Source: Thermodesulfobacteriota bacterium (GTDB lineage Bacteria > Desulfobacterota > BSN033 > UBA1163). Taken from it: DNA of 64,000 nt. The position numbers and the translations under genes are program-made. Below, piece by piece: positions 21,820-24,524 of the stretch. The stretch covers positions 1-64,000 of the forward strand of contig JAOAHX010000006.1 in the NCBI GenBank assembly GCA_026415035.1, given 5' to 3'. Under the pieces are notes generated by a model. That model ran no database searches and had not been told where the DNA came from. It saw nothing but the letters and a program-made list of their open reading frames with translations. Numbering within the stretch: position 1 is the stretch's first letter; each line of letters begins with the position of its first letter.

Positions 21820-23070
21820 ATGAAACCATCTCTCCTCATCATCGCCACCCTCGACACCAAAGGCCGGGAGGTGGCCTATGTGCGGGATTGTGTTCGGGAG
21901 AAGGGGATCGAGACCCTCCTGATGGATGTCGGGACGCTGGGCCCTCCCTTGGTTTCGCCAGATCTTTCCTGCGAAGAAGTCGTCCGAGCTGCGGGATATC
22001 TCCTCGAGGAGATCAGGGGCAGGAAGGATCGCTCCTTGGCGATCCGGGCGGTCCAGGAGGGTGGGGCCCTCCTGGCCAAACGCCTCTACGAGGAGGGAAA
22101 GGTGCAGGGTCTCTTCGGACTGGGAGGCGGGACAGGAACGGCCATCGTCACCCATATCATGCGGGCCCTGCCCTTCGGCCTTCCCAAGCTGGTTCTTTCA
22201 ACCGTGGTCTCACGGGATGTCCGAGAATATGTCGGAACGAAGGATATCGTCATGTTCCATTCCGTCGCCGACCTCCTCGGCATGAACGAATTTATGCGCC
22301 ACCTCCTAGGCCAGGCTGCCTATGCCATCCAGGGAATGATGGAGAGGGGAAGTGCCATCCCGAAAGGGAAACCGATGGTGGCCGTGACCGCTTATGGGAT
22401 CAACTCCCTCTGCGCTCTCCATGCCGAGCCCCTGCTCCAGGAGAGAGGGTATGAGATGATCGCCTTTCATGCCAATGGGTGCGGGGGGATGGCCATGGAG
22501 GAACTCATCGCCCAGGGCCTGATCCAGGGGGTCCTCGATTTCACCCTTCACGAGATCGCGGACGAGATGTTCGGAGGATATTGCCGGGGGATCGGACCGG
22601 ATCGGCTCGAGACCGCGGGCCGGCTGGGCATCCCACAGGTGGTCGTCCCAGGAGGCCTGGACAACGCCGTCTTCAGCCCTTTCTATCCGATGCCGGAGCG
22701 CTTGAAGGGAAGGAAGATCCATCCCCACGATATCCGTTTTTGTGTCCGTTTGGGTCCGGAAGAGATGGTCGAGTTCGCCAGGGTCATCGGAGGAAAATTG
22801 AAGAGGGCAAAAGGTCCGACCTATGTCTTGATTCCGAAGAAGGGCTGGTCCGAGGCGGACAAACCCGGCATGGAGCTTTTCGATCCGGAGACCGACCGGG
22901 TCTTTGTCGAGAAGCTGAGGGAGATCGTCGGCTCCTCCATCCCCATCGAAGAGATGGAGGCCCACATCAGTGACCCCGCCTTTGCCCAGCGGGCCGTCGA
23001 ACTTCTGGACGGGATGATCCGGGGGCCCCGAGGCTTTGAACTCCTTGGAAAGGAGATCGACGGCCAATAG
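21820..23070 (+). CDS. UPF0261 / Tm-1-like ATP-binding domain protein
   Basis: A 416-residue protein starting IIATLDTKGREVAYVRD, the hallmark of the UPF0261/Tm-1-like family. Further signatures are GLGGGTGTAIVTHIM, the long segment with NGCGGMAMEELI, and a C-terminal DIRFCVRLGPEEM. The family has a two-domain fold, and the plant Tm-1 protein blocks a viral replicase; the bacterial role is unknown. It lies 12 bases after the transglycosylase gene, ending the rightward operon. The terminator-like hairpin at 23096-23121 follows. Confidence 0.88.
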   Translation: MKPSLLIIATLDTKGREVAYVRDCVREKGIETLLMDVGTLGPPLVSPDLSCEEVVRAAGYLLEEIRGRKDRSLAIRAVQEGGALLAKRLYEEGKVQGLFGLGGGTGTAIVTHIMRALPFGLPKLVLSTVVSRDVREYVGTKDIVMFHSVADLLGMNEFMRHLLGQAAYAIQGMMERGSAIPKGKPMVAVTAYGINSLCALHAEPLLQERGYEMIAFHANGCGGMAMEELIAQGLIQGVLDFTLHEIADEMFGGYCRGIGPDRLETAGRLGIPQVVVPGGLDNAVFSPFYPMPERLKGRKIHPHDIRFCVRLGPEEMVEFARVIGGKLKRAKGPTYVLIPKKGWSEADKPGMELFDPETDRVFVEKLREIVGSSIPIEEMEAHISDPAFAQRAVELLDGMIRGPRGFELLGKEIDGQ

Positions 23071-23095
23071 AAGGAACGTTTTTTTCTGTTAAAAA

Positions 23096-23121
23096 AAAGG
23101 CCCTTTTTTTCAAGGGCCTTT
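23096..23121 (-). terminator. Intrinsic terminator, best in the leftward direction
   Basis: Ten-base arms AAAGGCCCTT and AAGGGCCTTT with a 6-base loop. On the minus strand the hairpin is followed by eight T, the classic terminator form; on the plus strand the T-tract is only three bases. It would end the transcript of the small peptide gene and may also act on the UPF0261 operon. Confidence 0.7.
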
Positions 23122-23168
23122 GCCTTCCCCCCGAGGGGGTCCCGATTCATCGAAGGCTCAGCGGTTTC

Positions 23169-23186
23169 GAAGACCTTCGGGTCTTC
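23169..23186 (+). repeat. UUCG tetraloop hairpin, similar to one at 53559-53571
   Basis: GAAGACC-TTCG-GGTCTTC: a perfect 7-bp stem with a c(UUCG)g loop on the plus strand. A related element, GACC-TTCG-GGGTC preceded by TTTCGA, occurs in the long intergenic stretch near 53553-53581. They may be copies of a small dispersed palindromic element. Confidence 0.45.
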
Positions 23187-23279
23187 CTGAGGCAGGATTT
23201 CAAACCCTCCCGTTTCGTCCTCTATGGGCGAAGGGCTTGAGGGCTTCCTCCCTTCTTGGGAGGCCGCCCGCAAACGAGC

Positions 23280-23342
23280 TTAGCAGGAAGCCTTGCATTT
23301 GCAGGTCGTGGACGCTTTCTTGGGGATCTTCTTGATGGTCAT
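23280..23342 (-). CDS. 20-residue Cys-rich mini-peptide (unrecognised)
   Basis: ATG at 23342-23340, TAA at 23282-23280. The 20-residue product starts MTIKKIPKKA and ends TTCKCKASC: a basic first half, then three Cys spaced CxCxxxC at the C-terminus. It has an excellent SD (AAAGGAGGTGAGG, six to ten bases upstream), a promoter (23397-23369) and a terminator (23121-23096), so it looks like a complete transcription unit of about 270 bases. It could be a ribosomally made, modified or metal-binding peptide, or a leader peptide for the structured RNA downstream. No maturation enzyme lies beside it. I do not recognise the family. Confidence 0.5.
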   Translation of the reverse strand: MTIKKIPKKASTTCKCKASC

Positions 23343-23368
23343 CTTCCTCACCTCCTTTCTATGAATTA

Positions 23369-23397
23369 AGGGTAGCACAACTCCCGTTCTAAGGCAA
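23369..23397 (-). promoter_or_regulatory. Promoter of the mini-peptide gene
   Basis: On the minus strand TTGCCT (23397-23392), 17 bases, TACCCT (23374-23369). Each box keeps the most important positions (TTG and TA...T). The start would be near 23362, about 20 bases before the ATG with the SD in between. Confidence 0.4.
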
Positions 23398-23474: not shown

Positions 23475-24524
23475 ATGAGGGCGAAGGAGAAGGCCGCCTT
23501 TCTTCATCATCCGGTTCATCCCATCGATGTGACCAAGACCCGGAACCTCTACGATCTGGTTCGGGCCTTTGAGCACACCTCCTTTCAGAGCCGGAACCTC
23601 TTCAAATGTTTCGAGGTCTTTCGAAAGATGCTGGCCGATCCCTCCTGCGTCATCTTCTTGGGATTGTCCGGGGCCATGATCCCGGGTGGGATGAGAAAGG
23701 TGATCCGCGACATGATCGCCCTGAGACTGGTCGATGTCTTGGTCTCCACGGGAGCCAATATCTTCCACGATCTCTTCGAGAGCTTCGGTTACCGCCACTA
23801 CGTGGGCACTCCGGAGGGAGACGATGATGCCCTTCGAAAACACCGGATCGTCCGGGTCTACGACGCCCTGATGGACGATCAAGAGATCAACCGGGTTATC
23901 CAGCTTCTCTCAAAGGTGCCCCGGGCCTTGGGAGAGGATGTCGTCTCCTCGAGAAGATATCTGGAGGCCTTAGGGAACCAACTCAAAGACGAGGCGTCGA
24001 TCTTGAGAACCGCGGCCCGGTGCGGGGTTCCCGTTTTCGTGCCCGCCCTCAGTGACAGTTCCATCGGCATCGGGTTGACCTTCCTCCATGCCAGGAAGCG
24101 GAATCCCGCCGAAGGATTGATCATCGACCAGATCCGGGACAGCTTCGAGATCGCCCAGCTGAAGCAGAAGGCCAAGACGACGGGCGCGATTTACATCGGC
24201 GGTGGGGTCCCCAAGAATTACATCCAGCAACTGGGTCCTGTGAGCGAGCTCCTCTTCGAAAGGGAGAGCGGCCATCGATTTGCCTTTCAGGTGACGACCG
24301 ACGATCCCAAATGGGGAGGCCTTTCCGGATGCACCTTCGAGGAGGCCAAGTCCTGGGGAAAGATCGAGAAGAATTCGGCCTATGCAGCCGTCTATATGGA
24401 TGCGACGGTGGCCCTCCCCCTTCTGGTAGGCGCCATCCTTCAAGAGGGAAAGGTTTACAAAAAGAGGAAACGGAGGAAATTTCTCTGGGAGGGAGACCGC
24501 CTCAAATCGATCCTCTTCGTTTAA
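23475..24524 (+). CDS. Deoxyhypusine synthase-family protein
   Basis: A 349-residue member of the deoxyhypusine synthase (DHS) family. Clear family stretches are FLGLSGAMIPGGMRK, STGANIFHD, VPVFVPALSDSSIGIG, and the active-site Lys296 in KSWGKIE followed by YMDATVALPLLVG. In eukaryotes and archaea DHS moves an aminobutyl group from spermidine to eIF5A. Bacteria lack eIF5A; some bacterial homologues make homospermidine or act on other amines. As the NAD-spermidine half-reaction residues and Lys seem intact, a polyamine reaction is plausible. The ATG at 23475 is set by the promoter; it is a single-gene unit. Confidence 0.85.
   Translation: MRAKEKAAFLHHPVHPIDVTKTRNLYDLVRAFEHTSFQSRNLFKCFEVFRKMLADPSCVIFLGLSGAMIPGGMRKVIRDMIALRLVDVLVSTGANIFHDLFESFGYRHYVGTPEGDDDALRKHRIVRVYDALMDDQEINRVIQLLSKVPRALGEDVVSSRRYLEALGNQLKDEASILRTAARCGVPVFVPALSDSSIGIGLTFLHARKRNPAEGLIIDQIRDSFEIAQLKQKAKTTGAIYIGGGVPKNYIQQLGPVSELLFERESGHRFAFQVTTDDPKWGGLSGCTFEEAKSWGKIEKNSAYAAVYMDATVALPLLVGAILQEGKVYKKRKRRKFLWEGDRLKSILFV

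Follow-up and report, generated by a model that had tools for sequence, protein, structure and literature searches.

The window, i.e. the whole stretch of 64,000 nucleotides that was analysed, carries on its minus strand a 20-codon open reading frame, accompanied by signals for translation and termination. This ORF is flanked on both sides by plus-strand genes, UPF0261 at 21820-23070 and a deoxyhypusine-synthase-like one at about 23475-24524. The features of the locus are the following:

23091..23121, minus strand: intrinsic terminator, 10-pair stem followed by a T tract
23241..23269, minus strand: conserved hairpin with a 12-position stem and an AAGAA-type loop (covariation in 11 sequences)
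23280..23342, minus strand: putative precursor peptide gene, 20 codons plus TAA, MTIKKIPKKASTTCKCKASC (read as an ORF; conserved in relatives)
23283..23303, minus strand: putative core segment CKCKASC (CKCxxSC in the family), the presumed site of modification
23304..23342, minus strand: putative leader segment MTIKKIPKKASTT (position counts over 74 distinct peptides; the boundary between leader and core is a presumed one)
23348..23358, minus strand: Shine-Dalgarno sequence AAAGGAGGTGA
23369..23397, minus strand: formerly claimed promoter, TTGCCT-17-TACCCT (7 of 12 consensus matches, not above background)

Much of this layout agrees with the earlier note, which had described a complete transcription unit for a Cys-rich peptide on the strand opposite to its neighbours, of a kind usually missed by annotation. 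The ORF is present at 23342-23280, and no Pfam or NCBIfam model passes for the peptide. The Shine-Dalgarno sequence, described as outstanding, is an essentially perfect anti-16S match, AAGGAGGTGA (23357-23348), located 8 nt before the ATG when counted from GGAGG; sequence and spacing recur in relatives. The strong terminator is also found: its stem (23121-23096) is followed by T8, the T tract is seen on the minus strand only, and the structure lies 160 nt further on, past the stop codon and the hairpin right after it. The promoter with 17-base spacing did not hold up: several other hexamer pairs within the same 150 bases match the consensus as well as its 7 of 12 positions, and the promoter scan reported nothing at 23397-23369. 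Rfam gives no match in the window. The neighbouring gene at 23475-24524 codes for a bacterial member of the deoxyhypusine synthase family (DS family, E 1e-91); it scores below every NCBIfam subfamily cut-off, and its product could be a polyamine enzyme of related kind.

A DNA search of 99 genomes found the ORF in 9 further genomes of the same taxonomic family, while the sole match outside it covers 24 bases and does not contain such an ORF. The same-family translations read MTI[KR]K[VI]xKxx...CKCKASC, with an identical C-terminal CKCKASC, and are preceded by the same Shine-Dalgarno sequence: frame and ribosome binding site, on whose conservation the earlier note had made its reading depend, are both kept, and so is the C-terminal CKCxxSC. 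Pairwise differences among the ten sequences fall on codon positions 1, 2 and 3 in the numbers of 112, 105 and 436; such third-position-dominated change is a clear sign of selection at the protein level. The ORF is a real gene, conserved far beyond chance.

Over the 74 distinct peptides collected, the consensus is a peptide of about 20 residues, with a leader of the type M-x-I-[KR]-K-[VI]-x-[KR] and a CKCxxSC end. Part of the strictness with which CKCxxSC is kept comes from the search pattern itself; a looser pattern gave nearly the same motif. Pattern matches in genomes G012, G034 and G058 were left out of the peptide count, the one in G012 belonging to a 90-aa protein and the other two coming with no listed ORF. 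The peptide of the window features three Cys in 20 residues, with neither Glu nor Tyr. Its leader is unusual in having P7 and A10, where relatives in the genus mostly have A and F, a point that counts against reading it as a precursor. A selenocysteine reading of the stop was considered and rejected, since the stop codon varies between TAA, TGA and TAG among relatives.

The earlier note had also suggested that the RNA itself may matter, which is borne out in part only. The region 3' to the ORF does fold better than its shuffled versions (z -3.6), and one hairpin is conserved, its stem starting about 13 nt past the stop codon in 11 sequences from the window's taxonomic family. In these sequences 94.7% of the cells pair and both sides of the stem have changed at six positions; at 0.402, the covariation score is higher than that of each of the 500 shuffles and of every slid version. 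Elsewhere, a terminator-like hairpin follows the stop in most bacterial members, while archaeal members do not feature it. Hairpins of this kind, raising the amount of precursor over that of enzyme, are common in RiPP operons, and a 3' stabiliser or attenuator with that effect is the simplest reading here; the hairpin is not in itself evidence of an RNA acting on its own.

The distribution of the peptide follows that of one radical SAM enzyme. In a survey of 395 genomes of the phylum, in which the enzyme, here called the maturase, was called at E<=1e-60, 38 genomes contain it. A loose pattern (CKCxxSC before TRR) is found in 37 of these 38 genomes vs 26 of the other 357 (Fisher 8e-34, a value to be taken as a guide only, because related genomes are not independent); the 26 matches are close to the background obtained with the reversed pattern. 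The specific pattern, including both leader and core, is found in 28 genomes, all of them maturase-positive (28 of 38 vs 0 of 357), and has no control matches.

Scanning GTDB genomes yielded 80 loci, spread over several bacterial and archaeal phyla and nearly all of the peptide's maturase family. At about 57 of the 77 usable ones, as counted by hand from the lists, a CKCxxSC-type peptide is encoded within about 2 kb. When 17 genomes lacking an adjacent peptide were searched throughout, 14 were found to have one elsewhere (about 13 if the match in G410, which looks like chance, is discounted), and up to three copies were seen in a Methanoperedens genome. Trans-encoded precursors are therefore common in the peptide family; they share no common neighbour across lineages. 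Among the conserved neighbours of the system as a whole neither an exporter nor a peptidase was seen. The earlier note had left the choice between metal binding and post-translational modification of the CxCxxxC end: co-occurrence and usual adjacency with an enzyme of the radical SAM/SPASM peptide-maturase type strongly favour modification.

The enzyme, about 390 aa long, features a CxxxCxxC motif and the full SPASM set of cysteines, both in invariant alignment columns, and all these cysteines are intact in the protein of the window genome. A homolog scores 2e-25 with Pfam Radical_SAM. The AF2 model of the maturase has a pLDDT of 92, its closest PDB structures being the RiPP maturases SkfB and SuiB; SkfB, CteB, PqqE and TigE are among its profile relatives. 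All NCBIfam radical SAM models score the maturase far below cut-off, the best one reaching about 100 bits vs cut-offs of several hundred. PqqD proteins of related genomes can be aligned in register with its N-terminal domain (hhalign probability 66%; 0.1% for the reversed control). This domain gets no score from the Pfam PqqD model and, used by itself as a PDB query, finds nothing significant: with a moderate PqqD match, this makes the assignment as an RRE likely, not proven. In a tree of 36 maturases, where only midpoint rooting was used, the window enzyme groups with those of its genus (support 81/94) and bacterial members separate from archaeal ones; the Lokiarchaeal row forms a long branch, and its place is unsure.

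In the window's taxonomic family the two genes are mostly contiguous. The peptide gene overlaps or directly follows the 3' end of the radical SAM gene in G008, G010, G011 and G013-G016, in most of which an ATP-grasp-like gene comes next; in G005 all three genes are found together. The window genome has an intact maturase gene on a different contig (G000:C8:53605-54771), where no peptide accompanies it, and in G009, from the same genus, peptide and maturase are likewise on separate contigs. The site of the window peptide corresponds to that of the whole cluster in G005, as shown by the shared HAD, SLT_2 and UPF0261 neighbours. Within the genus, peptide-bearing genomes contain the maturase at 62-72% identity, while six genomes have neither peptide nor maturase and give generic radical SAM matches only.

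The window genome has no ATP-grasp gene, although other carriers of the same taxonomic family have one with the system, and this too counts against the precursor reading. As a core component of the system, however, the ATP-grasp gene was rejected, being confined to that taxonomic family and absent from the window genome. In its product (L013:5923-6837, L015:10017-10931, L020:3686-4597) the normally C-terminal DFLI...EVN motif seems to be N-terminal, as if the protein were circularly permuted; the AF2 model (pLDDT 40) is too poor to judge this.

A different small protein, of ~55 aa and with the conserved pattern ICxxCxFYKExxxDLECxAFKIL..., is encoded upstream of about 26 maturase loci (L064:9458-9622 on G000:C8 in the window genome). 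In many genomes its end falls inside the start of the maturase gene, and the maturase of G229 (L222:2616-4151) seems to have a similar stretch fused to its N-terminal end. The small protein has no Pfam or NCBIfam match above cut-off; it probably works with the maturase as a metal- or Fe-S-binding partner.

Carriers of the system belong to Desulfobacterota, Nitrospirota, Chloroflexota, Actinomycetota, Bacillota, Methanoperedens, Archaeoglobales, Hydrothermarchaeota and Lokiarchaeota. The peptide lies downstream of the maturase in the window's taxonomic family and in Nitrospirota, upstream in Desulfobacteraceae and archaea. Two Lokiarchaeota precursors (L150, L154) contain three tandem CKCGxxC cores, of the ACKCGSTC-TCKCGSGC-ACKCGSSC type; in L150 the peptide is just upstream of the maturase gene.

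The general features of radical SAM/SPASM RiPPs are present, a short precursor being linked to an enzyme with CxxxCxxC and SPASM cysteines, and by analogy the logic of the pathway may be of the sacti/ranthipeptide or of the PQQ type. PQQ and mycofactocin combine a tiny precursor, PqqD-like recognition, a PqqE/MftC-like SPASM enzyme and a wide, conserved distribution. The system described here shares these traits with them (PqqA/PqqD/PqqE in the case of PQQ), with PqqD-like recognition as a likely one, but its core is Cys-rich and its PqqD-like domain is fused to the maturase. It does not belong to the PQQ family: the conserved Glu and Tyr of PqqA are absent, the PqqE model gives homologs of the maturase about 55-62 of 381 bits, and no PQQ or mycofactocin enzymes were seen among the conserved neighbours.

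With SCIFF/ranthipeptides (CteA/CteB) it shares a Cys-containing precursor, a SPASM enzyme with a (here likely) RRE and a housekeeping-like distribution, but the lineages are different, and membership was rejected on the basis of three Cys in 20 residues, vs six in about forty-five, and of the lack of an NCBIfam match. More generally, the SkfB, SuiB, CteB and TigE systems, radical SAM/SPASM RiPPs with RRE-bearing maturases, similarly pair a short ribosomal precursor with a SPASM enzyme; here, in contrast, the precursor is only 20 aa long, ends in CKCxxSC and is often encoded in trans, and the maturase passes no NCBIfam maturase model. The graspetide class was also discarded: its defining enzyme, ATP-grasp, is found only in the window's taxonomic family, and the window genome itself lacks it.

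The SbtA/SbtM thio(seleno)oxazole system (TIGR04081/TIGR04082), described in section 14 of PMC11002830, comes from the same phylum, and in it a short Cys/Sec peptide is likewise partnered by a radical SAM enzyme. A relation was hinted at by weak matches of TIGR04081 to two family peptides (about 12 bits, cut-off 30.5), the window peptide giving none. It was rejected on the real SbtA loci of related genomes, where the leader is of the K-L/KK-LLAGL type and the core contains TGA/Sec; the maturase, in addition, is shorter than SbtM and reaches about 70 of the 350 bits of the SbtM cut-off. A term search in the main text of the SPASM survey PMC9062424 gave no CKCxxSC-type motif, and a PLoS One paper that was checked for SbtA makes no mention of it. 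The full-text literature searched contains no description of the motif or of the peptide family; most subscription papers and preprints fall outside that search, and an earlier description is possible.

Taken together, these data indicate, with a probability of about 0.85, that the gene codes for a RiPP precursor; its family, radical-SAM-dependent and with a Cys-modified C-terminus, would be an undescribed one, here served by a maturase in trans. That the peptide is translated and is a substrate of the radical SAM/SPASM maturase appears highly probable. In the mechanism that we infer, a K-rich leader of roughly 13 residues (M-x-I-K-K-[VI]-x-K) would dock on the PqqD-like N-terminal domain of the maturase. 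The radical SAM cluster would produce a 5'-deoxyadenosyl radical, and hydrogen would be abstracted from the CKCxxSC core. One or more Cys sulfurs, perhaps bound at a SPASM auxiliary cluster, would then be joined to carbon, most plausibly in a sactionine- or ranthionine-like linkage. Such a Cys-to-carbon thioether, suggested by the Cys content of the core only, is an even bet. The core might finally be set free to serve as a small cofactor, either redox-active or metal-binding.

Three other explanations were weighed against this precursor reading. The copy in the window could be a leftover: the maturase would have moved away from the old cluster site and the ATP-grasp gene would have disappeared, so that the precursor remaining there may no longer be matured. 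Synteny with the intact G005 cluster, the missing ATP-grasp gene and the two unusual leader residues are what such a history would leave behind. Yet ORF, Shine-Dalgarno sequence, hairpin and core are all intact, the maturase has kept its catalytic and SPASM cysteines, precursors encoded in trans are common in the peptide family, and members outside the window's taxonomic family also do without ATP-grasp; decay at this locus is therefore improbable.

Still less probable is a small metal-binding peptide, metallothionein-like and unmodified, in which case the radical SAM enzyme would have another substrate. A metallothionein would need no dedicated radical SAM partner, whereas the tight and exclusive link with a single radical SAM/SPASM family, shaped like RiPP maturases, and the multi-core precursors of Lokiarchaeota are both RiPP hallmarks; these outweigh the facts that the CxCxxxC end could bind metal and that no Pfam or NCBIfam class contradicts such a role. 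Finally, the covarying hairpin past the stop codon and the strongly folded 3' region could be seen as an indication that RNA is the conserved entity, be it the hairpin or a small regulatory RNA, and the ORF incidental. This is hardly credible, given the third-position-dominated variation, the strict conservation of residues across domains, the archaeal members keeping the peptide without the hairpin, and the absence of Rfam matches in the window.

If the precursor reading is right, an annotation-invisible 20-codon gene marks a peptide-modification system that spans two domains. Biochemical reconstitution would have a precise precursor and maturase to start from, any genome could be screened for the system by a simple DNA signature, and a candidate conserved modified peptide would be at hand for methane-oxidising archaea, Nitrospirota, sulfate reducers and Asgard archaea. 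RiPP searches restricted to the surroundings of the maturase will overlook trans-encoded precursors. The role of the peptide is the least certain step. Its wide, weakly diversifying spread over mostly anaerobic lineages, together with the lack of a conserved exporter, suggests a housekeeping, intracellular function, as redox or metal cofactor or as carrier, and the lack of a conserved exporter or peptidase neighbour argues against a secreted toxin. A bolder proposal, on balance doubtful, is that CKCxxSC peptides give rise to an ancient, previously unseen cofactor, or redox/metal carrier, with a housekeeping role in bacteria and archaea that are mostly anaerobic; it would be comparable in spread to PQQ or mycofactocin and made by a dedicated SPASM enzyme, from precursors among the shortest known and often encoded away from the maturase.

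Additional copies were observed at some loci. G010 has a second, interrupted copy of maturase and ATP-grasp (L066, G010:C81), whose flanks are nearly identical to those of L015 (G005:C3), so that the contig may represent a recent transfer or a binning error. G013 features, besides its clustered copy, a second, orphan precursor, MKIKKIEKKLSGICKCKASC (L221:6397-6459 on G013:C7), followed by the same post-stop hairpin. At L225:1-3492 (G324) and at L091, two near-identical precursor genes are present, one beside the maturase and the other about 1.4 kb further on, with a methyltransferase-like and a cupin-like ORF, as named by eye, in between.
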